Source: a virus
Virus record (IMG/VR): IMGVR_UViG_3300012944_000345
Span: 1-28,289 of that record
Reading direction: 5' to 3' (one strand)
Length of the DNA: 28,289 nt
Below are positions 507-14,675 of the stretch, one piece after another. The translations under genes and the position numbers were made by a program. The notes below the pieces were generated by a model that saw only the letters and a program-made list of their open reading frames with translations, did not search any database and had not been told where the DNA came from. Within the stretch, counting starts at the first letter, position 1, and every line of letters starts with the position of its first letter.

Positions 507-1139
507 TTACTTTGTCGCCTCGATGATCCAGTGCGAGATGTTCGCGCCGTTGTCGGTGTGGGTCATGGATTCCAATTTGATGCCCCGGAACATACCGAAA
601 GCCTCGTAGACCTCACCCTGGATAAGCCGGTGGAACGTCGCGCCCGCCAATTCCTCGCGCATCACGGGACTGTGGTCGGCGCAGGCCATGATCGATAGCA
701 GCTGGCCGCCGGACCTGAGCAGTGCCATGATTTCACGGATGGACTTCTCGAAGTAGTCCACGTGCTGGAGGCAGCAGACGTCGATGACGCCGTCATACGC
801 GCCGGGAACGAACCCGTACTCGATGAGGCCTGGAAGCGCGGCTGGATAGAACTTCACCGAGTGGTGCATGACATTGAAATGGTTGGCACGTCCGATCGCT
901 TCCGGCGATGCGTCGCAGGCGTCGACCAGGAACCCGTGGTTGCCTAACCATATAGCCTGCGCGCCGACGCCGCAGCCGACCTCTAGGAGACGAACCGAGC
1001 CCATCGCGTCCTTGACCTGCCCTCCCCACCGGCGCATCGCCCAGCGGGCCACGGCAGGCTCAGGGCACGTCCCCCACTGGACCTGCCGGTGGAGGTCGTC
1101 CCACTTCTCGATGCTCGTCTTGGCGGTTTCCTGTCGCAC
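507..1139 (-). CDS. Class I SAM-dependent methyltransferase
   Basis: A 210-residue protein with a Rossmann-type methyltransferase core. Motif I is LLEVGCGVGAQAIWLG, followed by DACDASPEAI (motif II) and YDGVIDVCCLQHV (motif IV region), as in small-molecule methyltransferases of the UbiE/Methyltransf_11/25 type. I chose GTG at 1139 because GAGAGGAG lies 7 bases upstream, directly after the stop of the preceding gene at 1153; the longer open frame back to 1343 has low-complexity non-coding character. It lies downstream of neuC in the sugar operon, so O- or N-methylation of the nonulosonic acid or of a surface sugar is plausible, but that is inferred from position only. A small metabolite is equally possible. 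Confidence 0.85.
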   Translation of the reverse strand: MRQETAKTSIEKWDDLHRQVQWGTCPEPAVARWAMRRWGGQVKDAMGSVRLLEVGCGVGAQAIWLGNHGFLVDACDASPEAIGRANHFNVMHHSVKFYPAALPGLIEYGFVPGAYDGVIDVCCLQHVDYFEKSIREIMALLRSGGQLLSIMACADHSPVMREELAGATFHRLIQGEVYEAFGMFRGIKLESMTHTDNGANISHWIIEATK

Positions 1140-1152
1140 GTGACAACTCCTC

Positions 1153-1803
1153 TCAATAGCAGGGGATTGGACCGCGCGGGGACGGGCACAGCGGCCTGGG
1201 CCTGCCACCATTCCGGTGGAACTGGTCGACGCAATACTGCCCCTGACAGTCCATGTCGTGCTCCCGTATCTGTCCCTCCGGGTATACCGGGCCGGGAGGA
1301 TGCGCCCGCGTCGGCTGCCCTCCCCCATGCCATTGCCACTCATATCCGTCCCAGAAGTAGCCGCGCTGCTGGGCGCGTGCCCCGTCCTGTGCCAAGAGGA
1401 GAACTACGATCGCCATCGCCAGGCAAAACGCCCGCCCCAGGTAGGCCGAGAGGATGTATCCTTCTGGCTCGTTGTCCCAGAGGTTGCCGGGGGCGAACAG
1501 GAGTGCGTCTCCGTAAACCCTGCAGCCATCCTCGTTGTTGCGTTTCACCTTCCAGGCCAGCAGGCAACCCTCGGTCGCCGTCACGCTGAGGCCCATCTTG
1601 TCGTCGAGGCGCGCGACCTCCCACTTTGGGGGTGAGGTGGCGTCTTCCGGCTTCCTGGCATCCTCGCATCGTACCTCGAGGAGGTTCTCGCGAACGCCAG
1701 GGTTCCCCTTCTCGATGATGGCGATAGGTTGAAGCCACGGTTCGAACCGCTTGCCGCTGATCCCGTGGCGGGGAAAATACGTTTGCATGATGAGCGTGGT
1801 CAT
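1153..1803 (-). CDS. Hypothetical protein with an internal signal-peptide-like segment
   Basis: A 216-residue frame whose ATG overlaps the neuC stop (ATGA at 1800-1803). Residues 1-115 are soluble and unrecognised. Residues 124-141 (AFCLAMAIVVLLLAQDGARA) read like a signal peptide with an ARA cleavage site, followed by a Trp/Tyr/Gly/Pro-rich tail with several Cys. The tail resembles the secreted mini-protein at 3225-3497 in style. Either this is one protein with a single internal membrane anchor, or two genes fused in frame with a second start at Met130 (position 1416). I see no strong ribosome site at Met130, so the single long frame is the default. Confidence 0.6.
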   Translation of the reverse strand: MTTLIMQTYFPRHGISGKRFEPWLQPIAIIEKGNPGVRENLLEVRCEDARKPEDATSPPKWEVARLDDKMGLSVTATEGCLLAWKVKRNNEDGCRVYGDALLFAPGNLWDNEPEGYILSAYLGRAFCLAMAIVVLLLAQDGARAQQRGYFWDGYEWQWHGGGQPTRAHPPGPVYPEGQIREHDMDCQGQYCVDQFHRNGGRPRPLCPSPRGPIPCY

Positions 1804-2978
1804 AAAATTATTCCTTGAGCGATGGCATCCATCGTTCGCTTGAACTCGTCACGCAATGGTTCGACGGAACCGGAAAGACACCATTGATGGAACTTCTTCC
1901 GCAGCAGCGCGCGCGGGTCCTCAATCCCGCCTATCACCTTGGCGATGCGCTCGGCGGCGTGGCCGTCCCCGTAGGGATTGCTGGTCCCGCCATATTCACG
2001 CGAGCCGAATCGTTTCCCGATCATTGCCTCAATATGCTCGCCAATATACGCGGGATCAGTCGAGTTGCCGCATTGGGACGCGACGCCGCCAAGCGGGCGA
2101 CCTTTCTGGCGGTCTCCCAGGTTGACCACTGGCGTTCCGAAACACGGTGCCTCGTAGAACCCCGCCGACGAGTTCCCGACCAGCACGTCGCACCACCGCA
2201 GCAGGGAGTAGAACACCTGCGGCTCGACGTTGTCGTGATAGACGGTGTCGGGGCGGTTCTGGGCGAGGCGCTGCCATTCCCGGCGGATGAGGTCGCCCCC
2301 GGCGTCGGCGTTCGGCCCCAGCAGCACCAATGCCTCCGTCCTGCGCGCCAGGGCCACGCTGAGAGCCTCTAGCTCGGAGGCTGTGTCACCCAGGGTGTTG
2401 CTATGAAACAGCACCAGGAGGCTTCTCTGGGGCACTGTGAGCATATAATCGTTGGCCAACCCAATCGTGACGAAAATTCCTGCCCGAGTCATGGTCGGCG
2501 TCGCCATCACCATGTCGATCCCCGGGCACCCGGTGACGTGGACACGGTCCGGCTCCTCGCCCATCTGGACGATCCGATCGGCCGAGTCCTGATTGCTGGG
2601 AAAGTGCAGATGCGACAGTTTTGTGATCGCATGCCTGAAACTATCGTCTTGTGATCCCTCGGTGAGGTCGCCGCCGCCGACGTGGGCTATAGGGACACCC
2701 GTAATGTTGGCGGCCATGGCGGCACCGAGAATTTCATGGCGGTCGCCGTGCAGCACAACGAGGTCTGGCCGACCGTGGCGATGAAGTTTATGAATGCTGG
2801 AAGCCACAACCTCGATGCTGTCCGCCACAATCCCCGTAGCGTCGTCGGCGTTCATAGCGGGTCGGCCAGATACCGCCGTGACCCAGCGCACATCATGGTT
2901 CTCCGCAAGCAGGGCGCGGTTGACCATCTCCAGTGCGTTCCGGTCGGACCGGCTACCGGAGATGAGGACGATCTTCAT
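1800..2978 (-). CDS. neuC: NeuC-like UDP-GlcNAc-type 2-epimerase (hydrolysing)
   Basis: A 392-residue protein of the UDP-N-acetylglucosamine 2-epimerase superfamily, NeuC/LegG branch. These enzymes invert C2 of a nucleotide-linked HexNAc and release the nucleotide, giving ManNAc or 2,4-diacetamido-trideoxymannose for nonulosonic acid synthesis. Visible signatures are HGDRHE (77-82), GGGDLTEG (101-108), the DDSFRHAITKLSHLHF run (111-126), VGNSSAG (267-273) and NLGDRQKGR (286-294). The usual HPxT near residue 192 is HSNT here. Length is normal for the family. The ATG at 2978 overlaps the preceding stop. With an aminotransferase in the same operon, the LegG-type reaction is more likely than plain ManNAc formation. 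Confidence 0.93.
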   Translation of the reverse strand: MKIVLISGSRSDRNALEMVNRALLAENHDVRWVTAVSGRPAMNADDATGIVADSIEVVASSIHKLHRHGRPDLVVLHGDRHEILGAAMAANITGVPIAHVGGGDLTEGSQDDSFRHAITKLSHLHFPSNQDSADRIVQMGEEPDRVHVTGCPGIDMVMATPTMTRAGIFVTIGLANDYMLTVPQRSLLVLFHSNTLGDTASELEALSVALARRTEALVLLGPNADAGGDLIRREWQRLAQNRPDTVYHDNVEPQVFYSLLRWCDVLVGNSSAGFYEAPCFGTPVVNLGDRQKGRPLGGVASQCGNSTDPAYIGEHIEAMIGKRFGSREYGGTSNPYGDGHAAERIAKVIGGIEDPRALLRKKFHQWCLSGSVEPLRDEFKRTMDAIAQGIIL

Positions 2979-3214
2979 TCTGTTCTCCCTCTCAGTCCTG
3001 GCTGCGTGACCCTGACGAAGCCGCTGCCGACGCCGTCCTTGATGGTTACACTCTCCATCTGAACGGTGATGCGCTCCAGCGCGTCGGCGATGCGGTGGAC
3101 ATCGCCCAGGAACTGCTCCAGAAGACCGAACCCGGCCAAGGTGAAGACGCCCTCAACAGTGGTCTTCTGATCTTCACGCGCCATGGAGCGCAGCGTCTCA
3201 AAGATTTCCTTCAT
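2975..3214 (-). CDS. Small hypothetical protein
   Basis: A 79-residue protein, MKEIFETLRSM onward, with a helical N-terminal half and a C-terminal stretch of alternating Val/Thr (ITVQMESVTIKDGVGSGF). The start at 3214 has AAGGGA about 7 bases upstream, immediately after the stop of the 3225-3497 gene; an upstream ATG at 3247 would lie inside that gene. Its TGA overlaps the ATG of neuC. No family recognised. It may be a structural or regulatory mini-protein of the phage, but position alone does not tell. Confidence 0.6.
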   Translation of the reverse strand: MKEIFETLRSMAREDQKTTVEGVFTLAGFGLLEQFLGDVHRIADALERITVQMESVTIKDGVGSGFVRVTQPGLRGRTE

Positions 3215-3224
3215 CGGTGTTCCC

Positions 3225-3497
3225 TTAATTGCATTCCGGGCAGACATAGATCGTGACCCAGCCGACGCCCGGCCGGAATACTTGGCGGCGAATCATGGGC
3301 CGCCCGCAGTTCGGGCACGGCATCGCCACCGGCGGAGGGCGCGGCGGGTTGGCCGCGTAGTAGCCGGGCGGTGGTCCGTAGTACGGCCGCGGCATGCACG
3401 GGTATTGCCCGTAAGGGCCGCATTGCGCCTCAGCGCACGTCGTGGCAGCTAGCAGCAGCAGGAGTGCGGCATGAAACTTCATCGCCGCGTCGATCAT
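3225..3497 (-). CDS. Secreted mini-protein with zinc-ribbon C-terminus
   Basis: A 90-residue protein. Its ATG at 3497 overlaps the preceding TGA. Met6 starts a classic signal peptide (MKFHAALLLLLAATTCAEA, cleavage after AEA). A Tyr/Pro-rich linker (PYYGPPPGYYAANPPRPPP) and a CPNCG...CPEC pair follow, reading as a small zinc ribbon. Export together with a metal ribbon is unusual. It could sit in the periplasm or on the cell surface and be part of lysis or envelope modification. No specific family was recognised. Met6 may be the true initiator of the exported form, but the overlap favours Met1. Confidence 0.65.
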   Translation of the reverse strand: MIDAAMKFHAALLLLLAATTCAEAQCGPYGQYPCMPRPYYGPPPGYYAANPPRPPPVAMPCPNCGRPMIRRQVFRPGVGWVTIYVCPECN

Positions 3498-3703
3498 GTG
3501 TTGAAGCTCGATGCTGTCGAACTAACATTGCCGCCCTGCGGTATCGGTCCGGGTGGTATCGGCAGCGACGTCCGCGTTGGCTGCGACGGCGCGTTCAGAT
3601 GGTTGTTCGACCCGTACGGCTTAGGCAGCTCCGGCCGGATCGTCCCGGACGATTGAGCCCGCAGCCACTTGGGGATGATCCTTGATATCCAACCCATGTT
3701 CAT
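3494..3703 (-). CDS. Small Pro/Ser-rich hypothetical protein
   Basis: A 69-residue protein rich in Pro, Ser, Thr and Asn (LPIPPGPIPQGG), with a short basic amphipathic N-terminus (WISRIIPKWLR). Two starts are possible. ATG at 3703 overlaps the preceding TGA; ATG at 3697 sits 7 bases after GAGAGGAG and has the better ribosome-site spacing. Its own stop overlaps the next gene in ATGA. Function unknown; the composition suggests a disordered linker-like protein. Confidence 0.5.
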   Translation of the reverse strand: MNMGWISRIIPKWLRAQSSGTIRPELPKPYGSNNHLNAPSQPTRTSLPIPPGPIPQGGNVSSTASSFNT

Positions 3704-3984
3704 TCTCCTCTCAGTGTTCTCCTCGGACTTCCAAAATTAGAAGCTAATTTCCTGACGTAGCTTTCGAACGAGTCCTGTGGCTCCCGACGAACGAAGTACT
3801 TGTCAAGGTACCCATGAACTTGATCATAGTGACCAGTCGTGCGCAGAAGACGAGAAACCTCGTCATGGGCCTGGACACTCGTTTCAAACGGTCCAGCTTT
3901 GAGCAAATGGTGCGGATACTCAGGAACGATCGTGGTGTCCCTGTAGACGTACCAACCTGGTGCCGTCGGGATTGGATCGGTCAT
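3700..3984 (-). CDS. Hypothetical protein
   Basis: A 94-residue protein starting MTDPIPTAPGWYVYRD. The ATG at 3984 has GAGGAG 7-8 bases upstream, so I prefer it over the earlier ATG at 4044. The N-terminal APGWYVYRD pattern suggests a small beta-rich fold; the rest is charged and helical. It overlaps the end of the 3920-4255 gene by 65 bases in another frame, more than the usual 4-base coupling here. Either the overlap is real or the upstream gene's tail is non-functional. No family recognised. Confidence 0.55.
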   Translation of the reverse strand: MTDPIPTAPGWYVYRDTTIVPEYPHHLLKAGPFETSVQAHDEVSRLLRTTGHYDQVHGYLDKYFVRREPQDSFESYVRKLASNFGSPRRTLRGE

Positions 3985-4255
3985 CTGCGGTCTCCTCGTC
4001 TCCGTGGATGACCCTAGCAACGGAACGGGAGTCGGCGTCAACACCGGACGGAGGCCGGATGCTCATCTGCTCGCGGTACGAGACGATGATCTCTGCAAGT
4101 TCGAAACTGACAGCTTTGCGGATCAGCGTCTCATCATACGTCCCATCCGCAACAGTCGTCCGGATAGCTACATGAATTTCTGCCAAGAACTTTTGTATCT
4201 TGTCCAACTCGACCAAGAGCAGGCCCAACTTCTCGTCTAATTCCTTAGTAGTCAT
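3920..4255 (-). CDS. Hypothetical helical protein
   Basis: A 111-residue protein starting MTTKELDEKLGLLLVELDKI, with a strong AGGAGG ribosome site 5-6 bases before the ATG at 4255. Residues 1-75 are heptad-like and probably coiled coil. The last 30 residues are of low quality and overlap the next gene, so the functional part may end before about 3985. The sequence around its start (CCAGGAGGTTCGCATGA) closely resembles that of the next gene upstream at 4487. Unknown function. Confidence 0.5.
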   Translation of the reverse strand: MTTKELDEKLGLLLVELDKIQKFLAEIHVAIRTTVADGTYDETLIRKAVSFELAEIIVSYREQMSIRPPSGVDADSRSVARVIHGDEETADDRSNPDGTRLVRLQGHHDRS

Positions 4256-4274
4256 GCGAACCTCCTGGCCGACT

Positions 4275-4487
4275 CTATCCCCAGAGAACGTCGCCGTGAT
4301 AATGAGCGTTGAACCTACCGCTCTTCCAGCCGCGCCAAATGTCCGCCAATTCGTGGACGTATTGCTTGTCCTGCTCCGGAACACGTGCAACGGCGCTCTG
4401 AAAACTCTCCCCGTCCTTGCAAGCCTTCTGCATCATCATGACCGTGTCCCACGACGCGTCTGTGGCCACCCTGCCGTTCTTGCTCAT
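4275..4487 (-). CDS. Small hypothetical protein
   Basis: A 70-residue protein, MSKNGRVATDASWDTVMMMQ onward, ending in WKSGRFNAHYHGDVLWG. The ATG at 4487 overlaps the stop of the aminotransferase (ATGA at 4484-4487) and follows an AGGAAG ribosome site. A much longer open frame on the same strand reaches 5042, but it runs antiphase through the aminotransferase and is non-coding there. No family recognised; it is likely translated by coupling to the aminotransferase. Confidence 0.6.
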   Translation of the reverse strand: MSKNGRVATDASWDTVMMMQKACKDGESFQSAVARVPEQDKQYVHELADIWRGWKSGRFNAHYHGDVLWG

Positions 4488-5614
4488 GCGAACTTCCTGG
4501 CTAATTCTATACTTGCGGGAAGACACACCGCCCGGCTGAACACCTCGTCCGCCACCGGGAACGTACCACCGCCGTCCTGATACATCTTCAGCCGGTGCAT
4601 CGGCGTGAACACCGCGCGCGCCATTACCCCGCAATCGTGCAGCGCCGTCAACACCGCGTCGCGCTCCCCGGAAGGCACCAGGATCGTCGGCATCCAGAAG
4701 TTCGAGAACGTGCCGAAAGGCTCTTCGTGAAACGTCACGCCGTCCATGCCGTTGATCGCCGTTTTGTAGGCCATCGCCAGACCGCGCTTGGCCTTCACCA
4801 GGACGTCCAGTCGCTTGACCTGCTCGCTGCACAACGCCGCCGAAAGCATCGGCATGCGGTGGTTCCAGCCGATCGCGTCGTGCTCCACCAGCCACGGGTG
4901 CGCGACCCTGGCGGTGGTGGCGAGGTGCTGCGCCATGGCCCCTAGCTCGTCGTCGTTCGTCAGCAGCGCGCCTCCGCCGCCGGACGTGACCACTTTGTTG
5001 AGGTTGAAACTGACGACGGAGACGGTGCCCCAGGAACCGCATGGTCTGCTGGTCGGACGATTTGGATCATTGAGGATCGCCGACCCGATCGCTTCTGCCG
5101 CGTCCTCGATAACCGGAACGCCATAAGCGTCGGCAATGCTCAACAGCGCTGGCATGCTGCACGGATGACCGAGCAGGTGAACGGCGATGACTGCAGCCGG
5201 CTTGAAGACTCCGGTGTTGCTGAATAAGCATTTCAAGATATCGATCGGATCTGGTCCGTAGTCCCTTCCATATGCGTCGACGAAGACCGGCGTCGCCCCG
5301 ATCCTGACGACGGCGTTCGCCGCGGCCACGAACGAGAGCGTCGGCAGCAGCACGTTATCGCCACGCTTCACCCCGACCAGGTGCAGCGCCAACTCCAGCG
5401 CGACGCTACCACTGGACACGGCGACCGCATGCTTGACTTGCATCCGTTCCTTGAGCCGTTCCTGGAGCAGGTTGACGTAGTGGTAGGAGTCGAGACGCCG
5501 GGCTTGGTCCGCTATCGCCAGCACGTCCTCGTCGGTGACGACCGGCCGGTGGTGGCTGGCTGGTCCTTCCGTGACTAATAAGACCGCGTCCACCACCGCC
5601 TGGACGCTGAACAA
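4484..5614 (-). CDS. LegC-like DegT/DnrJ/EryC1/StrS sugar aminotransferase (PLP)
   Basis: A 376-residue PLP-dependent nucleotide-sugar aminotransferase. Visible features are an N-terminal VTEGPASHHRP (LegC-like proteins have TEGP...H.P here), SSGSVALELAL (68-78), the cofactor-binding EDAAEAIGS with Asp171, and the Schiff-base lysine Lys207 in FNLNKVVTSGGGG. The reaction transfers an amino group to a 4-keto sugar nucleotide, the step that makes legionaminic/bacillosamine-type sugars. Start is TTG at 5614, six bases after AGGAGG. Its presence beside neuA/B/C points to a 5,7-diamino nonulosonic acid rather than plain sialic acid. The exact substrate (UDP- or GDP-linked) cannot be read from the sequence. 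Confidence 0.9.
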   Translation of the reverse strand: MFSVQAVVDAVLLVTEGPASHHRPVVTDEDVLAIADQARRLDSYHYVNLLQERLKERMQVKHAVAVSSGSVALELALHLVGVKRGDNVLLPTLSFVAAANAVVRIGATPVFVDAYGRDYGPDPIDILKCLFSNTGVFKPAAVIAVHLLGHPCSMPALLSIADAYGVPVIEDAAEAIGSAILNDPNRPTSRPCGSWGTVSVVSFNLNKVVTSGGGGALLTNDDELGAMAQHLATTARVAHPWLVEHDAIGWNHRMPMLSAALCSEQVKRLDVLVKAKRGLAMAYKTAINGMDGVTFHEEPFGTFSNFWMPTILVPSGERDAVLTALHDCGVMARAVFTPMHRLKMYQDGGGTFPVADEVFSRAVCLPASIELARKFA

Positions 5615-5623
5615 TTTTGCCTC

Positions 5624-5734
5624 CTATCCCAGCCAATCCCTGACGTGAGCCGGGACATCATAGAGTACGGGAAAATGCTCATGAGCATACAAACAAAATG
5701 ATGTGGTCGCTGAGACCAGCAAGGTGATGAACAC
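5624..5734 (-). CDS. Possible 36-residue exported or membrane peptide
   Basis: A GTG at 5734 opens a frame of 36 codons (start VFITLLVSATTSFCLYAHEH) ending in TAG inside the ribosome site of the aminotransferase gene. The N-terminal 18 residues are hydrophobic. No convincing Shine-Dalgarno lies in front of the GTG, so translation is doubtful. It sits in an AT-richer 210-base stretch between neuA and the aminotransferase. Confidence 0.25.
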   Translation of the reverse strand: MFITLLVSATTSFCLYAHEHFPVLYDVPAHVRDWLG

Positions 5735-5738
5735 CCTA

Positions 5739-5834
5739 TTAAAACACCGTTGGCGGCCAGCCTAATGGCTGCTCTGATTTTGTCCTTTTGAGAGAAATCG
5801 CAGTTAGAATAATAGGGATCAATACGTACATCAT
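5739..5834 (-). CDS. Small single-span membrane peptide
   Basis: A 31-codon frame whose ATG at 5834 overlaps the neuA stop (ATGA), the standard coupling of this operon. The peptide begins MMYVLIPIILTAISLKR, one hydrophobic segment followed by a positive cluster, and ends in WPPTVF. It is too short for family recognition. Coupling and hydrophobic composition are the only support. It might be a membrane tether or a lysis-related peptide. Confidence 0.4.
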   Translation of the reverse strand: MMYVLIPIILTAISLKRTKSEQPLGWPPTVF

Positions 5835-6514
5835 GCTGGTGCCGTCGCTTTTTTGGTAATCGCCCCCGGGTCGAACCTCCCCTCGTCGTCCAGCATCGCC
5901 CTGGCCGCCTCGAAGTCCGCGTGCGTGTCGATGTCGAGCGAGCGCTCCGGCGGCATGACGTAGGCGTAGGCGTGCGGGTCGTACCAGTCGCCATTCTCCA
6001 GCAGGTGGTCCCACTTGACGAGGTAGATCGCCCCGTTCGGCGTGTAGACCGTGCCCCTCTCGCCGGCGCTCCGCATCCTGTTGGCGTGACCGAGCGTGAA
6101 CAGGGTGTCCGACTTCGGGAACTCAGTGACGGAGATGACCGAGTCCGCACCCGTGTCGACCATCACCTTCTGCGCCACGATAACGTCACGTTCGTCGCGG
6201 AACGGAGACGTCGGCTGGAGGAGCAGCACGGCGTTGTAGGGACTGTCCTCCGCGTTCCTGGCGGCATGGATGACGACGCTGACGTGGTCGGCATCGCCGC
6301 ACAGCTCAGGCGGACGCATGATGACCTTGCAGCCGTGCTGCTTGGCCACGCCGGCGATGAACTCGCTGTCGGTGCTCAGGACCACATGGTGGCACGTCGC
6401 CAGCCCGACCTCGATCGACCACGCGATGAGCGGCTTCCCGCCGAGCATGGCGGTGTTTTTGTTCGGAAGTCGTTTACTTCCGCCACGGGCGGTGATCACT
6501 CCCAAGACTTTCAT
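5831..6514 (-). CDS. neuA: NeuA-like CMP-nonulosonic acid synthetase
   Basis: A 227-residue cytidylyltransferase that activates a nonulosonic acid with CTP to the CMP-sugar. Signatures are the nucleotide-binding ARGGSKRLPNKN (9-20), STDSE (47-51), QPTSPFRD (100-107), NGAIYL (160-165) and DIDTHADFEAA (194-204). Length fits the single-domain NeuA/LegF/PseF group. The start at 6514 matches the family N-terminus (MKVLGVITARGGS) and has a weak AAAGAG site. An in-frame TTG at 6619 with a much better AGGAG site would add a Pro-rich 35-residue extension; see the hairpin at 6607-6633. Downstream it is coupled to the small membrane peptide at 5739-5834. Confidence 0.92.
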   Translation of the reverse strand: MKVLGVITARGGSKRLPNKNTAMLGGKPLIAWSIEVGLATCHHVVLSTDSEFIAGVAKQHGCKVIMRPPELCGDADHVSVVIHAARNAEDSPYNAVLLLQPTSPFRDERDVIVAQKVMVDTGADSVISVTEFPKSDTLFTLGHANRMRSAGERGTVYTPNGAIYLVKWDHLLENGDWYDPHAYAYVMPPERSLDIDTHADFEAARAMLDDEGRFDPGAITKKATAPA

Positions 6515-6530
6515 CTTCGGTCTCTTTCTG

Positions 6531-6641
6531 CTATATTCCGTAGCGGCATGGTATGGTCCGGTCGGGAATGGTCGGGCAAGGTGAGGTGCGGTTAGGCTTG
6601 GTGCGGGGGAGGAGAGCAATCAGTTCTCCTCCCATTTTCAT
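6531..6641 (-). CDS. Possible 36-residue leader ORF over the pentanucleotide repeat
   Basis: An ATG at 6641 overlaps the neuB stop (ATGA) and opens a 36-codon frame (MKMGGELIALLPRTKPNRTS...) ending in TAG just before the neuA ribosome site. The 5-base period of the underlying repeat gives a 5-residue Pro/Arg/Thr pattern in this frame and keeps all frames open, so openness is weak evidence for coding. It could be a leader peptide controlling neuA translation. Confidence 0.3.
   Translation of the reverse strand: MKMGGELIALLPRTKPNRTSPCPTIPDRTIPCRYGI
6543..6607. repeat. Degenerate pentanucleotide repeat, 13 units of NNGGN
   Basis: On the plus strand a GG dinucleotide occurs every five bases from 6545 to 6606 without a miss: 13 consecutive units such as gcggc, atggt, ccggt, aaggt, gaggt and ttggt. 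In the transcribed leftward strand this is a C-rich, G-poor stretch (consensus NNACC) between neuB and neuA. The units are not identical, so this is an old or selected periodicity rather than a fresh slipped-strand repeat. Confidence 0.85.
6607..6633 (-). promoter_or_regulatory. Hairpin sequestering a ribosome site ahead of neuA
   Basis: A perfect 9-base-pair stem (GGGAGGAGA with TCTCCTCCC) closes a 9-base loop. Read leftward, the left arm is a strong AGGAG ribosome site placed six bases before an in-frame TTG (6619-6617) in the loop. The hairpin could therefore hide or present that start. There is no U-run after it on the leftward strand. On the plus strand ATTTT follows, so a weak rightward terminator is the alternative. 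Confidence 0.55.
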
Positions 6642-7549
6642 AGTCCAGGTTGGAATCCATCCTTGTCCTTTCGTAGACGGCTAACCATCGCCAACTCCTC
6701 CTCGCTGGGCTCCTTGCGGCCATGGCCGAGGATTTCTTCAAACTCGCGGATATCGCACACCAACGTCTCAAACTCTGCCGGGTTTGCAGACATGTGATGG
6801 TCAGGACCATCATCGTATTCGTTGAGCGTGAAATGTTTCTCGATGACCACCGCCCCGAGCGCGACGGCGGCGCACGATGACTCCGTAAACATCCCCTCCG
6901 TGTGGTCGCTGTAGCCGACACGATGTTCGTAGTTCACCATCTTCCAATTAGATTCATCCCACTCGTCTCCGAGATGTTGCAACGCAGTTATCGCCGCGAC
7001 GTTGGCTAGGTGCGGAGGACATGGGTAGAGACTGACGCAATGCATCACCGTCAAATCAACTTCGATCCTGGGACTTTCCGAAGTTGCCGCCTTGCGGCTC
7101 CATTGCCGCGCGACTGCACCTTCGATCTCCTCCAATGTCGCCATCCCGGTGCTGAGGAGCACCGGCAGCCCGGTGTCGAACGTCGCGTCCACCAGCGGCT
7201 CGTAGAGCAGCGAGCCTGACCCGAGCTTGATGCGCTTCACGCCGCAGACCTCGACCAGGAACTTGAGGCTGGCGAGGTCGTCCGGCGTCGAGCAGAACTC
7301 GATACCGATGTCCGCGCAATGGGCTGCGATCTTGGTGAACTGGTTGAAGTCCAGGGCCAAGCCCATCACCTGCTCGACCTTCGGATCCTTCCATCTGTCC
7401 ATGCGGAACAAGCTGGTGGGCACGAACGTCTGGAACTTGACGATGTCCGCGCCAGCAGACTTCGCCGCGTCACAGAGGCGTAATGCGTTGCCGAGGTCGC
7501 CATCATGATTGACAGAAACCTCGGCAATTATCGTACATCGCTTGGTCAC
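6638..7549 (-). CDS. neuB: NeuB-like nonulosonic acid synthase lacking the SAF domain
   Basis: A 303-residue TIM-barrel synthase that condenses PEP with a ManNAc-type sugar to form a nonulosonic acid. Visible are AEVSVNHDGD (9-18), KFQTF (38-42), STPDD (87-91), KLGSGSL near 108, LSTGM (132-136), MHCVSLYPCP (169-178), GYSDHTEG (212-219), EKHF (237-240) and GPDH (248-251). NeuB, LegI and PseI proteins are usually around 340-350 residues with a C-terminal antifreeze-like SAF domain. This one stops about 40 residues early, after RKDKDGFQPGL. Start is GTG at 7549, right after the stop of the previous gene, with a weak ribosome site. Confidence 0.92.
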   Translation of the reverse strand: MTKRCTIIAEVSVNHDGDLGNALRLCDAAKSAGADIVKFQTFVPTSLFRMDRWKDPKVEQVMGLALDFNQFTKIAAHCADIGIEFCSTPDDLASLKFLVEVCGVKRIKLGSGSLLYEPLVDATFDTGLPVLLSTGMATLEEIEGAVARQWSRKAATSESPRIEVDLTVMHCVSLYPCPPHLANVAAITALQHLGDEWDESNWKMVNYEHRVGYSDHTEGMFTESSCAAVALGAVVIEKHFTLNEYDDGPDHHMSANPAEFETLVCDIREFEEILGHGRKEPSEEELAMVSRLRKDKDGFQPGL

Positions 7550-7551
7550 GG

Positions 7552-7914
7552 TCAGGGCGTAACCTTTGCTGCCTCGGCCGTGAGCGCCGCCGTGACGCCG
7601 CTGATGGCCGTCACCGCCGCTGCGATGGCCGGGTCGTTCCCGGTGTTGGCGGCGGCGATCTTCGCAAGCTCTGTCTCGATGGCACTGGCCGCGGCAGCCG
7701 ATGCCGTCTGTAATGCCGCAACTGCGGCTGTCAGGTCTGTGGTGTCGCTCATGATCTGCCTCAATGCTTGGGCCTGGATTGATAGGCTTTCAACCATCGC
7801 GTTGATGGCCTGTGTCAACGTGGATAGCTGGTTCATAACCTGCGTGTGGCGGGTCGCCGCAGCCGTCTCGGTCTCGCAGGATGAACTTCCGAATAAAGAC
7901 CAAATGCTGCTCAT
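7552..7914 (-). CDS. Ala-rich coiled-coil hypothetical protein
   Basis: A 120-residue protein with a short N-terminal head (MSSIWSLFGSSSCETETAAA), then a heptad-rich segment (about 25-60) and a long Ala/Thr-rich C-terminus. Low complexity and coiled-coil character suggest a small phage structural or scaffold-like protein. I do not recognise a family. The ATG at 7914 follows GGGG at good distance. Two bases separate its stop from the neuB GTG, so it is cotranscribed with the sugar genes. Confidence 0.65.
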   Translation of the reverse strand: MSSIWSLFGSSSCETETAAATRHTQVMNQLSTLTQAINAMVESLSIQAQALRQIMSDTTDLTAAVAALQTASAAAASAIETELAKIAAANTGNDPAIAAAVTAISGVTAALTAEAAKVTP

Positions 7915-7956
7915 GTCGCCCCGCTTTTCCTCCCCTCTCAGGGAAGTTGTTGATCG

Positions 7957-8253
7957 CTAGATGTTCGACACTTTCGGCTGCGACGCGTCGGCCACCGCGG
8001 CCTTCACCGCGTCGCTGGCCGGGCTCGCAATGGTGACGATCTTCCTCACGTCGGGGAGCGCCGCCACCGCGGCGATCTTGGCGCTGTCGGTGTGCGCGAA
8101 GAGAGTCCACGCGAGCGGGATGAGAGTGCCAGCAGCGCCGCCGATCAGCGTCAATTGCTCGCTGTTGAGCCAGCCGCGGCCGACGGCTATGCCGCCGCCG
8201 AGCGCCAGCAGGTTGCGGACCAGTCCCAGAACTTGATCTTGGTTCATCTCCAT
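7957..8253 (-). CDS. Putative phage holin (Pam3-gp28-like)
   Basis: A 98-residue protein starting MEMNQDQVLGLVRNLLALGG. It has two hydrophobic segments (about 8-24 and 36-52) separated by a short turn containing NSEQL, then AHTDSAKIAAVAALPDVRKIV. This order matches the Pam3-gp28-type putative holins seen in proteobacterial phages, which form membrane lesions at the end of the lytic cycle. Either Met1 or Met3 can use the AAGGA site. No endolysin or spanin is recognisable nearby. The role is inferred from family resemblance. Confidence 0.7.
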   Translation of the reverse strand: MEMNQDQVLGLVRNLLALGGGIAVGRGWLNSEQLTLIGGAAGTLIPLAWTLFAHTDSAKIAAVAALPDVRKIVTIASPASDAVKAAVADASQPKVSNI

Positions 8254-8266
8254 CTTCCTTTCTTGG

Positions 8267-8557
8267 TTATCCCGGATACCCCAGAGCCCGCTTCTGGGAC
8301 GGTGTCAACGTGGCCAGCACGGCGTTGCGTTCTGCCTCCTGCTGATCGGCGGACGGTAATCCTGATGAATCCTCGGCGTCGTGATGGTGCGACCGTTGCG
8401 GGGTCTTCGGCGAGCCGTACGCGACCGTCTCGGCCAGACGCACGAGTGTGGTCGCGATGTTCCTGTCCGCTTGGCTGACGACTGCGCGTCTCCCCTCAAT
8501 CAGTTCCAGCGCCTCCTTGACCATCGCCTTCAGCGCGACGTTGTTCTCGTTGGTCAT
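8267..8557 (-). CDS. Hypothetical protein
   Basis: A 96-residue protein starting MTNENNVALKAMVKEALELI, with a helical first half, a His/Asp-rich patch (SHHHDAEDSS) at about 56-64, and a C-terminus LATLTPSQKRALGYPG. The ATG at 8557 overlaps the stop of the previous gene (ATGA). The C-terminal L..LT..QK.ALG pattern resembles the end of the preceding gene (LAKLTSEEKEAMGLS), so the two products may share a small C-terminal motif. Unknown function. Confidence 0.6.
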   Translation of the reverse strand: MTNENNVALKAMVKEALELIEGRRAVVSQADRNIATTLVRLAETVAYGSPKTPQRSHHHDAEDSSGLPSADQQEAERNAVLATLTPSQKRALGYPG

Positions 8558-9393
8558 GACAGTCCCATCGCCTCCTTCTCCTCCGAGGTGAGCTTCGCCA
8601 GCGCCGACGCCAACAGTTGCTGGCGCTTCTCCTTGACGACGTAGGTGATGTTGCGCTTCGCGAACACCTCCATCATCTCGGCCATCAGGGCGTCGCCCCA
8701 CTGCGGGATCGCCCGCAGCCTCTCCTCCGGCACCTGCGCCGCGTCCTGCCAGTTGTAGCACCCGCACAAGACGAGGCAGTAAACGAGCCTGGTCCCGGTC
8801 ACGAAGTCGCCGGCCGTGGCGCGGAAGCCGTCCACCTTCTCTGGCCAGTCTTCGGGGATGACCTCGCCATGCTCCATAGACGGCCGCTGGAAGGCTATCG
8901 TCTTGGACGCCACTAAACCTGCCACCTCGGCTGCTGGCGCACCAGCGGGCTCCTGGCGTCGTTCCTGGGCCACCATGGGTCCAGGCCCGCTGTCTTGCTG
9001 GCTGCGCTTGAACGGGAGTCCGCCTATCCCGGTGCCGCCCTCGTAGACCACCGGGGCTGGCTGCTGCGCCACCATCGCCTTGGCCTGGGCCGAGTCCCGC
9101 TCATTTTGACGCATGTCCTCGATGTGGGACAGCAGGTCCTTCTCGCTAATCGACCATTGACTTGCTGCGGTCCACGTCATGACGGTGCGGTGCTTGAGGC
9201 GCTGATAAAATCTAGTGGCTTCCTGGTGGCCGAGCACGTTCTCTGCCAGTGCCAACGCCAAATGGCCTGCCTCGGCGTTGCCGTTGCCCCACGCGAATCC
9301 AAGTTTGGTGTTGCCGACGGATGGCAACACGGTGACCTTGCCGCCGTCCTCGACGGTGACCTGTCCTCCTGGTACGCCGCGGAAAATCTTCAT
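8554..9393 (-). CDS. DUF6166-like N-terminus fused to an unknown C-terminal region
   Basis: A 279-residue protein. Residues 1-95 (MKIFRGVPGGQVTVEDGG, then LGFAWGNGNAEAGHLALALA and the ATRFYQRLKHRTV...W.ISEKDL pattern) resemble DUF6166, a small domain of unknown function found in phages and plasmids. A Gln/Ala/Pro-rich linker (about 105-165) leads to a C-terminal region with VYCLVLCGCYNWQDA and a final helix LASALAKLTSEEKEAMGLS. I chose ATG 9393, just after the preceding stop at 9395; an in-frame ATG at 9417 inside that gene is possible. DUF6166 is normally standalone, so the fusion is notable. Confidence 0.65.
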   Translation of the reverse strand: MKIFRGVPGGQVTVEDGGKVTVLPSVGNTKLGFAWGNGNAEAGHLALALAENVLGHQEATRFYQRLKHRTVMTWTAASQWSISEKDLLSHIEDMRQNERDSAQAKAMVAQQPAPVVYEGGTGIGGLPFKRSQQDSGPGPMVAQERRQEPAGAPAAEVAGLVASKTIAFQRPSMEHGEVIPEDWPEKVDGFRATAGDFVTGTRLVYCLVLCGCYNWQDAAQVPEERLRAIPQWGDALMAEMMEVFAKRNITYVVKEKRQQLLASALAKLTSEEKEAMGLS

Positions 9394-9394
9394 C

Positions 9395-9658
9395 TCAGGA
9401 GTTTCCTGCCCGCTCATACTCCGGCGCGCGTTCCGGGTCCGGCCACGTCGGCCGCACACCGGCATGTTCCTCGATGAGGTCGCCGGCCATCTCCTGCACC
9501 AGCAGCCGCCATTCGTCCTGCCGTTCCCTGGTCTTGACCAACCCCATGTTGACGGAGGCGAGGAAGACAGCATCCTTCATCGTGTCAGGTGAAGCCCAGT
9601 AGGCGTTCCAGTAGTTGCCCTCCTCACGAAGAGCGAGACGACCGATTTTGCTGCTCAT
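9395..9658 (-). CDS. Small conserved-looking phage hypothetical
   Basis: An 87-residue protein starting MSSKIGRLALREEGNYWNAYW. The opening IGRLALREEG and the later PDTMKDAVFLASV, with a C-terminal PTWPDPERAPEYERAG, are typical of a recurring small phage protein of unknown role. The ATG at 9658 overlaps the stop of the previous gene (ATGA at 9655-9658). Its stop lies two bases before the next ATG. Confidence 0.65.
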   Translation of the reverse strand: MSSKIGRLALREEGNYWNAYWASPDTMKDAVFLASVNMGLVKTRERQDEWRLLVQEMAGDLIEEHAGVRPTWPDPERAPEYERAGNS

Positions 9659-9840
9659 GATATCTTCGGCTGCTCAGGAAGTTTGCTGATCAAATCATAT
9701 ACACGCTTGCTCCACTGGTAGTAGCGTTGTGCCTCATTCCCATAGAAATCGTTGGGCCAGTATCCAGTGTAGGACGAGAGCCCGCTTTGCAGGAAACCAG
9801 CCGCCTCGCGCTTCAACTCACGAATGATCTCAGCGCTCAT
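9655..9840 (-). CDS. Small hypothetical protein
   Basis: A 61-residue protein (MSAEIIRELKREAAGFLQSG, then YTGYWPNDFYGNEAQRYYQW). It is rich in Tyr/Trp and probably helical. The ATG at 9840 overlaps the FemAB-like gene's stop in ATGA, and its stop overlaps the next ATG, so it is translationally coupled on both sides. No family recognised. Confidence 0.55.
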   Translation of the reverse strand: MSAEIIRELKREAAGFLQSGLSSYTGYWPNDFYGNEAQRYYQWSKRVYDLISKLPEQPKIS

Positions 9841-10919
9841 GAAGCCTCCCGTCGGTACAGCGGTTCGAAGCTGGTGCCGAACTCCGTCCCCGTCTCGGCC
9901 ACCTCCCGGCGCTTCTTCTCGGCGCACAGCCCCGCGTAGGCCGCCTCGTCGAACACCCGGAAGTAGGACATTGCCGGCGCGCGCAGGTCGGAGAACCCGG
10001 ACTTGAAGAACAGCACCGGGTCCGACGGGTCCGACGTCGCCCCTCCGCCGAGGTGGAACCGCTTGCATCCGTTGCGCGCTGCATATTGCGCCATCTCGTG
10101 GACCAGCAGGTCGTTGGCGCAAACCCTCGGATAAATGTCGGAGTTCGCGGCGAGATGGTAGTAGGCAGTGCCGTCCCGCGTCATGAGCATGAGCGCGGCC
10201 GACTGGACGATGGCGCCGACGCGGGCGTACCACACCGTCCCGAGGTCGCAGAGAGCCTTGAGGTACTCGTCCGTGAAGTACCAGCGCGTCGCTGCCTGCT
10301 TGCGCAGCATCGTCAGACGATACATCTTGATGAACACGTCGGGCTGATCGCCCATGACGATGTTGATGCCCTCCTTCATCGCCTTCTTGATGCCGGCCTT
10401 TCGGTTGGCGTGGTACTGCTCCGCGAAGTCGCCATTGAGGTCAACCCAGACGATCTGTTTGCGGGTCACAGGTTGGATGCCCGGCACGGCCTTGAGTAGC
10501 CCGAGCTGGTGCGCCGTCATGAACGGGTGCAGCGCGCAGAACTCGGTCACGACGCGGTTCTCCATAGCCCAGTTCGTGAACGCCTGGTTGAACCACTCAT
10601 AGAGCTGCGGGCCGTGATTCGACGCCGGGCCGCCGTAGCCATACGGGCTCGACACGTCGCGGCAGGTCCAAACTGCCTCCACAGCCTCATCTTCTGGCAT
10701 GCCTATGTCGAACGGGAAGATATCCCGAATGATGATCGGCTGCGCCACGACGTAGTCGCGGTAGGTGTAGGTGGCGAGACGCGCCTCATGCCCACGCAAC
10801 TCCTCCGCCGCCATGTAGTCAGGCGTCCAGTGAACGTCATGCAGTGCCTGCGGCAGCTGGTAGATCGTCCGCAGCCACTTGTCGCGGTCGTTCACCGGAT
10901 GGAGGAGTTCGAAACCCAT
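9837..10919 (-). CDS. FemAB/GNAT-like acyltransferase
   Basis: A 360-residue protein with the layout of FemAB-like GNAT proteins (Acetyltransf_6/BioF2-like). It has an N-terminal domain, a central NRKAGIKKAMKEGINIVMGD segment, then VWYARVGAIVQSAALMLMTRDGTAYYHLAANSD and a GCKRFHLGGGATSDPSDPVLFFKSGF block. That last block is typical of FemAB proteins linked to extracellular polysaccharide. Such enzymes acylate or aminoacylate amino sugars or lipid-linked precursors. In this operon it could N-acylate the amino sugar made by the aminotransferase, taking the place of a LegH-type acetyltransferase, but this is inference. The ATG at 10919 overlaps the previous stop by one base (TGATG), with GGAAA upstream. 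Confidence 0.8.
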   Translation of the reverse strand: MGFELLHPVNDRDKWLRTIYQLPQALHDVHWTPDYMAAEELRGHEARLATYTYRDYVVAQPIIIRDIFPFDIGMPEDEAVEAVWTCRDVSSPYGYGGPASNHGPQLYEWFNQAFTNWAMENRVVTEFCALHPFMTAHQLGLLKAVPGIQPVTRKQIVWVDLNGDFAEQYHANRKAGIKKAMKEGINIVMGDQPDVFIKMYRLTMLRKQAATRWYFTDEYLKALCDLGTVWYARVGAIVQSAALMLMTRDGTAYYHLAANSDIYPRVCANDLLVHEMAQYAARNGCKRFHLGGGATSDPSDPVLFFKSGFSDLRAPAMSYFRVFDEAAYAGLCAEKKRREVAETGTEFGTSFEPLYRREAS

Positions 10920-11131
10920 CAGCGTTTCCGTTCATAATAGCTGCCGAGCGACCTTTTTTGAAACTTGCCGCATTTCTTGCAGTATCTCGTCTTGTATCTT
11001 TCAACGAGCACCGTCTCTGCCAAATCTGACCCAGCCGTCGCGAAAATGGAGAACGCTGACGCCCACCTGGAACTATCTTCCTTCCATGACTGCCAGTCAT
11101 GCCAGCAGAGCAACTCTTTGAAAAATCTCAT
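10919..11131 (-). CDS. Small zinc-finger-like protein
   Basis: A 70-residue basic protein: MRFFKELLCWHDWQSW, then a central helix, then TRYCKKCGKFQKRS. C...HDWxxW followed by a CxxC pair is a layout I have seen in tiny phage metal-binding proteins; the first Cys/His and the later CKKCG could bind one zinc. The ATG at 11131 follows AGGAG by seven bases and overlaps the previous stop by one base. Specific role unknown. Confidence 0.65.
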   Translation of the reverse strand: MRFFKELLCWHDWQSWKEDSSRWASAFSIFATAGSDLAETVLVERYKTRYCKKCGKFQKRSLGSYYERKR

Positions 11132-11595
11132 CAGCGAACTCCTGGCGGGAGGATAATGCGGTTGCGCCCCTGCGGCTTGGCGATGATGTCCTTTGCCTTT
11201 TTCAGGATTTGCTGCCCGACCTCAAAGGCAAACGTCGGGTCGACCTGCCCCATCTTGTTGATGCCGAGCACGAAGTTCGCCTCGTGCGTCGTCCCTGGGT
11301 CGAACCCGAGGATCACCCCGCCGCGGAGGCTCTCGTGCGTCGACACCCCGAACACGTCCGGGTAGCGCAGCACGGAGCTGCCGATGGAGAGCTTCTTGCG
11401 GAGGACCGCGTGGAACAGCTCGTTCACCTGGTCCGCCAGCCGGCCCACCTGCTCCGGGCGCATCGCCAGCGCCACCTGGGTGCCGTCCTGCCGGTCGCAC
11501 ACCAGCACGGCCAGGGTCCCGTCCTCGGAGACCGAATGATTCGCCACCCTGGTGACGAACATGGTCAGAAGCTTGTTTTTCGCGTCGTCTGGCAC
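11131..11595 (-). CDS. Hypothetical protein, first gene of the leftward operon
   Basis: A 154-residue soluble protein. A beta-rich N-terminal part (TLAVLVCDRQDGTQVALAMRPEQVG) reads like a small sandwich, followed by GFDPGTTHEANFVLGI and a basic C-terminus. Start is GTG at 11595 with a GGGGG site six to seven bases upstream. It is the first gene after the divergent intergenic region, so its promoter should be the candidate at 11623-11652. No family recognised. Confidence 0.6.
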   Translation of the reverse strand: MPDDAKNKLLTMFVTRVANHSVSEDGTLAVLVCDRQDGTQVALAMRPEQVGRLADQVNELFHAVLRKKLSIGSSVLRYPDVFGVSTHESLRGGVILGFDPGTTHEANFVLGINKMGQVDPTFAFEVGQQILKKAKDIIAKPQGRNRIILPPGVR

Positions 11596-12613: not shown

Positions 12614-13327
12614 ATGATCGCCATGACCAACGCCAACATGAGAAACCTGCCGACCACGCCAGCGCCCGCGCCGGAAAAGTCCTGGGACAAGCGCGACCGC
12701 GCCGTGAAGGCCGCCATCGCCGAGCTCGGACCGCAGGCCATCCCGGAGTTCGACTTCACCGTCGTCAAGTGCGACAAGCGCTGGATGTGGCGCGCGACCG
12801 CCGCGGACAAGCGCCCGCCCGTCAGCGACGCCCAGGTCAAGGCCAACGGCGGGAAGCGCGCGGTCGACGCCCTGGTCAGCGTGCCCGACCGGCTGGCCGG
12901 CGAGGCCATCACCGCTGCGGCCGTGGAGAAGATCATGGCCGCGGCCAGGAAGCCGGTCGACACCACCGAGGACGCCAACGGCGTGCCCAAGTTCCTGAAG
13001 CGCGACGGCGACAAGAGCGTCGAGGCGCAAGAGGCGCTCGTCGCCAAGCACAAGAAGACCATCGGGCCGGACCGGGTGATCAAGAACCCGCCGGACGCAA
13101 AGACCGCCAAGAATCGCGCCGAGAAGACTGCTGGAAAAGGCATCAGCAAGACGGCCATGGTCGGCCAGCTCCTGCTGCGCAAGGAAGGCTGCACGACCGC
13201 AGATATCCTCGCCGCCACTAAGTGGCCGTCCGTTTCTGTGCCGGCTCAGGCCAAGGCAGTCGGACTCGGCTTGCGCAAGGAGAAGGACGGCAAGGTCACG
13301 CGGTACTTTGGAGTGCCGAAGAAGTAG
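12614..13327 (+). CDS. Protein with DUF3489-like winged-helix C-terminus
   Basis: A 237-residue basic protein. Residues 1-165 are Ala/Lys/Pro-rich and partly disordered (KCDKRWMWRATAADKRPPVSD, later KNPPDAKTAKNRAEKT). Residues 175-235 (SKTAMVGQLLLRKEGCTTADILAATKW, ending RYFGV) match the pattern of DUF3489, a small winged-helix-like domain usually read as K...LL.R.EGAT...L..ATGW. This suggests DNA binding. The start at 12614 uses the repeated GGAGAACCAC leader. Its last 32 bases overlap the end of the convergent methyltransferase gene. Confidence 0.65.
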   Translation: MIAMTNANMRNLPTTPAPAPEKSWDKRDRAVKAAIAELGPQAIPEFDFTVVKCDKRWMWRATAADKRPPVSDAQVKANGGKRAVDALVSVPDRLAGEAITAAAVEKIMAAARKPVDTTEDANGVPKFLKRDGDKSVEAQEALVAKHKKTIGPDRVIKNPPDAKTAKNRAEKTAGKGISKTAMVGQLLLRKEGCTTADILAATKWPSVSVPAQAKAVGLGLRKEKDGKVTRYFGVPKK

Positions 13328-14675
13328 ACTTAGCCTTCTTGTTCTTCCTGGCCCGGGACGGCGGCGCAAGTTGCTCCCGGGCTACTTCGTCGAAGGTTTG
13401 TCCTGTCGCCTCTAGTGTGGCTTGTTGCTTGGCGTAGTCCTGCCAACGCTGCACTGCGACGTCCACATAGATCGGATTGATCTCCAACGCCAAGCATATG
13501 CGACTGGTCATCTCAGCGGCAATGATTGTGGTCCCTGATCCGACGAACGGATCATAGACGGATTCACCCGGACGGCTGTTGTTCTCGATCGGGCGCTTCA
13601 TGCACTCGATTGGCTTCTGCGTCGAGTGTCCCGTCTCGGATTTGTGCGGCTTGTCGATCAACCACAGCGTTGATTGCGTGCGGTCGCCATTCCAATGGCC
13701 CGTCTTGCCTTTCCGAACAGCGTACCAGCATGGCTCATGCTGCACATGGTAGTTTCCGCGGCCGATCGCGAATTGTTGTTTGCCCCATATAATCTGCATA
13801 CGAATATCGAAGCCGGCGGCGATCAGCGCGTTGTGATGCATGATCAACAAGTCACCTGACGGACTCCACGCATAGACAACATCGCCGGGAAACAACGCCC
13901 AGGCGGCGTCCCAATCGGCGCGATCATCATTCGAAACTTTGCCAACCGCGCCGGCACCTATTGCGCGATTGCCCATACCATGACTGTGGCGCGCGGCGTG
14001 GTTCCGCCAGTCCGGATCATAATCAACGCCATACGGCGGATCGGTCACCATTAGATGCGGTTTAGCACCATCTAGCAACCGGCCAACATCAGTCTCCGCC
14101 GTGGCGTCCCCACACAGCAGCTTATGCTTTCCCAGCAGCCACAAGTCACCCATCTGCGATATCGGCACTGCTGGCGGCTCTGGCGTCGCCTCCGGATCTT
14201 GTCCACTCACCTGCACCATATACTGGACAAGTTTGAAATCATCGAATCCCGTAAGTTTGAGATCGTAACCCGTCAGCGCCAGTTCGCCGAGTTCAATCTT
14301 CAGCAATTGCGGCGACCATGTCGACGCTTCCGTCAGGGCATTATCTGCAATTCTGTAGGCCCGCTTCTGCTCTTCCGTCCATCCATCGGCGACCATGACT
14401 GGGACCTCAGAAATCCCCATGCGGTTCGCCGCCATCAAACGACCATGGCCAGCGATGCAGACGCCTCCCTCATCTACGAGAATCGGCATCGTCCAGCCGA
14501 ACTCGTTGAGACTGCGGACCAGCGCGTCGATCTGTTCGTCGGAGTGAACTCGCGGATTCTGCGGATATGCGAGGAGGTCCTTGACGGACCGTCTCTCGAC
14601 CTTGTCTGCTGGCCATGCACCAGCGCGCGGTTGAAGGATTAGCGGCTGCAGTGCTGATTTCGTCTTTTTGGCCAT
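13296..14675 (-). CDS. ParB-N domain fused to DNA (N4/N6) methyltransferase
   Basis: A 459-residue protein. Residues 27-125 are a ParB/Srx-type domain (SVKDLLAYPQNPRVHSDEQI, then GVCIAGHGRLMAA). Residues 170-425 form an amino-methyltransferase with the catalytic DPPYG (212-216), HSTQKP (350-355) and the SAM motif DPFVGSGTT (375-383), motif order IV before I, as in beta-class enzymes. It would methylate exocyclic amino groups in a short DNA motif, probably to protect phage DNA from host restriction. No cognate endonuclease is adjacent. No clear ribosome site precedes the ATG. This fusion is common in phages and prophages. Confidence 0.92.
   Translation of the reverse strand: MAKKTKSALQPLILQPRAGAWPADKVERRSVKDLLAYPQNPRVHSDEQIDALVRSLNEFGWTMPILVDEGGVCIAGHGRLMAANRMGISEVPVMVADGWTEEQKRAYRIADNALTEASTWSPQLLKIELGELALTGYDLKLTGFDDFKLVQYMVQVSGQDPEATPEPPAVPISQMGDLWLLGKHKLLCGDATAETDVGRLLDGAKPHLMVTDPPYGVDYDPDWRNHAARHSHGMGNRAIGAGAVGKVSNDDRADWDAAWALFPGDVVYAWSPSGDLLIMHHNALIAAGFDIRMQIIWGKQQFAIGRGNYHVQHEPCWYAVRKGKTGHWNGDRTQSTLWLIDKPHKSETGHSTQKPIECMKRPIENNSRPGESVYDPFVGSGTTIIAAEMTSRICLALEINPIYVDVAVQRWQDYAKQQATLEATGQTFDEVAREQLAPPSRARKNKKAKSTSSALQSTA

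Follow-up and report, generated by a model that had tools for sequence, protein, structure and literature searches.

Can a bacteriophage own a pathway for a sialic-acid-like sugar, and where would such a sugar go? The question is raised by a 28,289-base IMG/VR virus record (IMGVR_UViG_3300012944_000345; the whole of this stretch is called the window here), in which the genes for NeuC/LegG-, LegC-, NeuA/LegF- and NeuB/LegI-like enzymes, a FemX-like acyltransferase, an S-adenosylmethionine (SAM)-dependent methyltransferase and a holin lie co-directionally on the minus strand (positions 507-10919), with intact reading frames. The initial annotation of this DNA had named each of these genes, and family and PDB matches recovered them all. 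Judging from the enzyme types, they likely form a conserved phage cassette that would carry out the middle and late part of a legionaminic-type nonulosonic acid (NulO) pathway. We infer the enzyme activities, the exact sugar, the roles of the FemX-like protein and the methyltransferase, the host precursor, and the destination from sequence comparison.

A cassette kept by related phages

A second IMG/VR contig (L002/L007; 17,224 bases), 99.98% identical to the window over 13,257 bases, extends beyond the window's left end, where small open reading frames (ORFs) are followed by genes for a TerS-like protein and a large terminase (Terminase_6C, 2e-12). Contig L107 shares 4,085 bases with this second contig at 99.9% identity and brings in genes for a Mu-type portal and an XkdF-type protease, along with a weak match to Mu F. 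Because the overlapping contigs carry terminase and portal genes, the operon is phage-borne, as the initial annotation held, and lies just upstream of the packaging genes, with the TerS- and TerL-like genes immediately downstream of it. That annotation had named a host chromosomal island as the case that would speak against it. Such an island, or an assembly chimera mistaken for phage, has one point in its favour, the bacterial type of the enzymes; the terminase and portal on separately assembled flanking contigs, the shared synteny in divergent phages, and the distinct phage clades refute it, and we give it practically no weight.

Related phages G002 (41 kb) and G003/G004 carry these genes with order and position unchanged, with amino acid identities of 64-95% and ratios of nonsynonymous to synonymous substitution (dN/dS) of 0.08-0.44 across the five cassette enzymes; the ratio of the FemX-like gene is 0.17. 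These ratios mean that purifying selection acts on the cassette and, together with the recurrence of homologous intact frames, identically ordered, in other phages, that the gene set exceeds chance. The large terminase differs in type between the sister phages (G002, 30740-32131, and G003, 9466-10824, versus L002, 14714-16300), while the flanking genes are kept; therefore, the cassette stayed in place while packaging genes were exchanged. Two distant phages, L111 (56 kb) and L112, show the order FemX-like, DUF6166-like, NeuB, NeuA, LegC, NeuC, methyltransferase, TerS-like, and terminase, and an unrelated 88-kb phage (L113) has FemX-like, NeuB, NeuA, LegC, NeuC, and methyltransferase genes with two MptE-like genes ahead of the cassette.

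The four core enzymes

The gene at 1800-2978 (minus strand, like all genes of the window given below) encodes a NeuC/LegG-like hydrolysing nucleoside diphosphate (NDP)-sugar 2-epimerase that scores 261.7 bits against TIGR03568, above the NCBIfam cut-off of 235.9. Its best PDB match is a GDP/UDP-N,N'-diacetylbacillosamine 2-epimerase (5xvs, 5e-37), and its GDRxE and TEGSQDDxxRHAxTK motifs are conserved in six phages. The LegC-like sugar aminotransferase of the DegT/DnrJ/EryC1/StrS family (4484-5614; TTG start preceded by AGGAGG; Pfam 6e-77) matches the LegC family model TIGR04181 at E=1e-93 and 313.8 bits (cut-off 420), against 194.7 for the PseC model, and keeps the SFNxNK motif with the pyridoxal phosphate lysine across the six phages. 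The NeuA/LegF-like CMP-nonulosonate cytidylyltransferase (5831-6514, ATG at 6514) reaches 76.5 bits with CTP_transf_3 (3e-21; cut-off 22.6), matches a CMP-NeuAc synthetase in the PDB (6ifd, 2e-23), stays below the PseF equivalog cut-off, retains its characteristic motifs, and shares 93% amino acid identity with its copies in the other two close phages. The NeuB/LegI-like phosphoenolpyruvate (PEP)-dependent nonulosonate synthase (6638-7549) scores 201 bits (2.5e-59) with Pfam NeuB; its closest PDB match is 6ncs, a 290-residue chain, followed by SpsE. A pseudaminic acid pathway was considered and rejected: the PseC model scores far below LegC and PseF does not reach its cut-off.

NeuB without the SAF domain

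The phage NeuB proteins are short, 271-303 residues versus 307-427 in bacteria (the 307 from a locus at a contig edge), and all six end ahead of the C-terminal SAF (antifreeze-like) domain. No SAF match was found in any phage record, nor as a separate gene, while the same search returned nine in a Bradyrhizobium genome. In the meningococcal enzyme NmNeuB, the SAF residue Arg314 is key for catalysis (PMC6795526). Otherwise the phage NeuB keeps residues equal to NmNeuB E25, K53, Q55, T110, K129, Y186, S213, H215, E234, H236, and D247; N184 is replaced by S and F112 by D, and N74 falls in an alignment gap. The length of the 6ncs chain suggests that forms lacking the SAF domain may exist outside these phages. 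A structure model of NeuB was poor (predicted local distance difference test score, pLDDT, 65) and was not used. How NeuB functions without the domain is a question that the locus itself raises.

These observations bear on whether the product is a legionaminic-type sugar at all. LegC and NeuC could use another 4-keto nucleotide sugar, with NeuB and NeuA making a non-legionaminic ulosonate (e.g., Neu- or Kdo-like); the missing SAF domain and the Ser and Asp at the Asn184 and Phe112 positions would fit, as would the scores of LegC, NeuA, and NeuB, which lie below their NCBIfam equivalog cut-offs (NeuC alone reaches its own), so that their substrates are not fixed by sequence. Yet the LegC model fits much better than PseC, the best NeuC matches are diacetylbacillosamine 2-epimerases, the second-best PDB match of NeuB, SpsE, is needed by B. 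subtilis to make legionaminic acid (PMC7439481), and many bacterial relatives sit in LegC-NeuC-NeuB clusters. We therefore hold a different sugar to be unlikely.

Missing steps and proposed pathway

The legionaminic acid pathway proceeds through a dehydratase, LegC, an acyltransferase, LegG, LegI, and LegF. Its UDP route has been described (PMC7439481). Set beside the CMP-legionaminic acid pathways of Campylobacter (Leg/Ptm) and Bacillus subtilis (SpsM-C-D-G-E-F, PMC7439481), the cassette is alike in its types of aminotransferase, hydrolysing 2-epimerase, PEP synthase, and CMP transferase; it differs in being phage-encoded, in its additional FemX-like and methyltransferase genes, in its NeuB, and in the steps that we did not find.

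Several points weigh against the legionaminic-type reading. An NAD-dependent 4,6-dehydratase for the LegB/SpsM step was not found in records G000-G005, G641, and G642 with PF01370, the sole model used (all 14 controls match), and these records may be incomplete; indeed all phage records are fragments or of uncertain completeness. No canonical N-acetyltransferase of the LegH/SpsD type was recognised; a FemX-like transferase is encoded. An MptE/Maf-like transferase was looked for in the window lineage and none was found, PF01973 (MptE-like) being the only transferase model searched. To these are added the three core enzymes below their equivalog cut-offs and the absence from NeuB of the SAF domain, and hence of a counterpart to Arg314. 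As encoded, the pathway is thus partial: with the dehydratase, LegH, SAF domain, and transferase not found, the window on its own cannot take a common precursor through to the sugar. Since no PF01370 dehydratase was found, the 4-keto sugar precursor probably comes from the host; the unrelated L113 contig encodes a CapD/PseB-type dehydratase. The initial annotation had proposed that the enzymes follow the LegC-G-I-F order of reactions and make a CMP-activated diamino nonulosonic acid. The enzyme types do fit that order; the parts just listed were not found around them, and both product and activity are predictions because all six phage NeuB proteins want the domain whose arginine matters in the meningococcal enzyme.

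We propose that a host LegB/PglF-type dehydratase would supply NDP-4-keto-6-deoxy-GlcNAc, which LegC would aminate at C4. The FemX-like protein would then acylate, or perhaps aminoacylate, the new amino group in LegH's stead; NeuC/LegG would take off the nucleotide and invert C2, NeuB would join the sugar to PEP, and NeuA would form the CMP-NulO. The methyltransferase might further modify the sugar or its acyl group, and the CMP sugar would pass to a transferase and most likely end up on something that the phage makes late, probably the virion itself, instead of on a lysogen surface.

The missing steps and the lost SAF domain could also be signs of decay, that is, of genes acquired by chance and drifting unused, and the patchy distribution (no cassette was found in the other TerL-related viral stretches examined) would suit such cargo. 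The low dN/dS, the intact frames, and the catalytic residues kept over long divergence argue against decay, which we regard as very improbable.

The FemX-like protein and the methyltransferase

The protein encoded at 9837-10919, a FemX/FemAB-like N-acyl or aminoacyl transferase of GNAT fold, matches PF02388 (FemAB) at 35.3 bits (7.8e-9), above the cut-off of 24. A Foldseek search with its predicted model (mean pLDDT 77) returned Weissella FemX (2.5e-13, TMq 0.65) and the aminoacyl-tRNA-dependent synthases Sba18/Sbb17. On these model matches it is the leading candidate to acylate the C4 amino group in LegH's place, and aminoacylation is a hypothesis; whether the protein places an amino acid on the sugar is thereby raised as a question. 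Its gene lies upstream of NeuB in five of the five phages where it was observed. In L111 (5878-7835) and L112 (4206-6208), a GNAT-like protein and a polysaccharide deacetylase are encoded between NeuB and NeuA, and perhaps change the N-acyl group.

The class I SAM-dependent methyltransferase (507-1139, GTG start at 1139; Methyltransf_11, 4e-11) has homologues in phages G002, G003, L111, L112, and L113 and in the bacterial NulO loci L119, L163, L176, L195, L205, and L206. Among 80 bacterial NeuC loci, FemAB occurs in six and the methyltransferase in four, all four within those six (P about 1e-5). Two loci from Bradyrhizobium's family (L205, L206), found by FemAB alone, have NeuC, NeuB, the methyltransferase, a LegB-like gene, and LegC nearby. 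From this co-occurrence, the FemX-like protein and the methyltransferase are probably parts of a NulO module and not chance neighbours.

The chromosomal loci L163, L176, L195, L205, and L206 resemble the phage cassette in clustering NeuC, NeuB, FemAB-like, and methyltransferase genes, most of them including LegC and/or NeuA as well, and in having FemAB adjoining or near NeuB. They differ in their full-length NeuB, in a LegB-like dehydratase (by eye in L163, L195, L205, and L206), and in FemAB and methyltransferase proteins that are ~19-35% identical to those of the phage. Such linked loci hint at a decoration of bacterial NulOs that may not have been described before.

Origin of the cassette

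The nearest bacterial NeuC is at most 43% identical among the matches listed, and a LegC-pattern scan of genome contigs gave no match. In quick maximum-likelihood trees (57-79 bacterial sequences each, drawn via NeuC, with six phage copies), the phage copies are set apart by a branch with support of 93 (NeuC), 99 (LegC), 99 (NeuB), and 96 (NeuA). For NeuC and LegC the branch of L113 is long, and the trees show separateness and not the exact root. From its shared position in related phages, the purifying selection, and the standing of the phage copies apart from the bacterial ones, the cassette is, by our reading, an old, phage-owned module. If it is active, it would be a nonulosonic acid pathway that phages own and maintain and did not recently borrow; what is new here is a known type of pathway in a new owner, with its start shortened and its parts altered.

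Among 50,697 deposited phage records, NeuB had three matches at 26-31% (one of them a Moritella bacterial contig), NeuC that contig alone, and the FemX-like protein none, and searches of the open-access PubMed Central literature yielded no paper describing a NulO pathway encoded by a phage. Sugar-gene islands of other phages (the 484-kb LR756508, the Kyanoviridae-type MH319754, and contigs L003, L004, and L005) likewise hold NeuB-like genes, and those of L003 and L004 also LegC-, NeuA-, and NeuC-like genes; they differ from the window in their identity (21-38%) and gene order. The L005 island (4862-11535) resembles a fuller pseudaminic-type pathway with a dehydratase, an aminotransferase, two NeuB-like, and a NeuA-like gene (by eye, from weak matches).

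Destination of the sugar

MptE-like domains belong to the Maf flagellin NulO transferases. Maf proteins attach NulOs to serine and threonine residues of flagellin (PMC11339370, PMC9298399). On contig L004, from an unrelated phage that carries NulO genes, a gene of the MptE-like family (PF01973) directly follows a SU10-type major capsid gene, and the likeness to Maf extends to the MptE-like proteins near structural genes in L113 as well as L004; the phage proteins have a putative Maf-like activity. By analogy, this proximity to capsid genes suggests virion glycosylation. It weighs against this suggestion that the phages with MptE-like genes beside capsid genes lie outside the window lineage, in which PF01973 was not found. 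In L212 (13279-16052), from a phage that carries NulO genes, one protein combines an MptE-like domain with a methyltransferase; its gene lies directly downstream of a SU10-type major capsid gene.

The cassette could instead serve host-surface conversion, altering or boosting the host's NulO on flagellin, capsule, or lipopolysaccharide by way of host transferases, so hiding receptors and excluding competitor phages. There is a precedent in the prophage enzymes EpaA/EpaB, which modify the pseudaminic acid of the Acinetobacter capsule (PMC12053666); like the cassette, they come from a phage and work on a nonulosonic acid; unlike it, they are encoded by two genes, epimerise the finished host sugar, and alter the host capsule, with no synthesis pathway. 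The lack of a transferase match in the window lineage fits the use of host transferases, NulO loci built from these types of gene occur on chromosomes in Bradyrhizobium's family, and the large terminase is closest to those of Rhizobium phages. On the other hand, none of the 12 records matches the phage integrase model PF00589 (all controls match; the records are incomplete, and other recombinase types fall outside this model), and the holin and packaging neighbours suggest late expression, when a change of surface helps least. Nor is there a host link: a portal search of 385 genomes of Bradyrhizobium's class gave two distant matches (38-41%) with no cassette in the stretches fetched, two weak ones, and no host. 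We regard such conversion as possible but somewhat doubtful.

Given the late-gene setting, the lack of an integrase match, and the MptE-like genes near capsid-region genes in two unrelated phages, virion glycosylation is slightly favoured over a change of host surface: the virion has about an even chance of being the destination, the host surface a clearly lower one, and any other destination a small one. In its fullest form, this reading would have the phage lineage start from a host intermediate, use a NeuB that works without the SAF domain to build a legionaminic-type sugar of its own, modified (possibly by aminoacylation and methylation), and attach that sugar to virion proteins, while unrelated phages reach the same end with a Maf-like transferase beside the capsid gene; taken with all its parts, it is tentative and rather doubtful. 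If the cassette is active, phages could display sialic-acid-like sugars, which bears on receptor use, virion masking, and phage-phage competition.

Other features of the locus

The core enzyme genes do not form one unbroken block. Small phage ORFs lie between them (e.g., 2975-4487 and 7552-9393), as do the holin and DUF6166 genes, and gaps of ~120 and 216 bases flank the NeuA gene; several ORFs abut or share 4-base overlaps, and GGAG/AGGAG-type sequences precede some starts. Between NeuC and the methyltransferase is an ORF without Pfam or NCBIfam match (1153-1803), possibly more than one gene. The stretch from NeuC to LegC holds a small ORF without family match (2975-3247), a small, cysteine-rich, secreted-looking protein with a weak zinc-ribbon match below the Pfam threshold (3225-3497), and several small ORFs within 3494-4487 (3494-3703, 3700-4044, one within 3920-4390, and 4275-4487), of which those scanned have no family match. 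A strong, perfect 11-bp hairpin (6607-6633) lies in the NeuB-NeuA gap of the window and might serve as a terminator or in regulation. Upstream of NeuB are a small coiled-coil-like protein (7552-7914) kept in G002 and G003, the holin of the Pam3 gp28 family (7957-8253; PF23987, Phage_holin_10, 2e-13, 50.6 bits versus a cut-off of 27), a small ORF kept in related phages (8267-8557), and the DUF6166 protein (8554-9393; PF19663, 1.6e-9), whose L111 and L112 relatives also lie between the FemX-like and NeuB genes (by eye).

Elsewhere in the window, a ParB-like domain is fused to a DNA methyltransferase (13296-14675; PHROG 498, 1e-132), and a gene resembling phosphoadenosine phosphosulfate reductase (15013-15792; PHROG 424) adjoins one for a secreted-looking alpha/beta hydrolase (15789-16757). 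The portal gene of the window's phage (L107, 3618-6494) holds an in-frame intein-like insert with homing-endonuclease/LAGLIDADG matches, the portal ORFs of G002 and G004 being much shorter. After the portal, related phages carry a B12-binding radical SAM gene (L105, 10528-12972; G002, 34840-36450), of which the G004 copy contains an intein with an HNH match, and the bacterial NulO locus L163 has a gene that by eye resembles a B12-type radical SAM protein.

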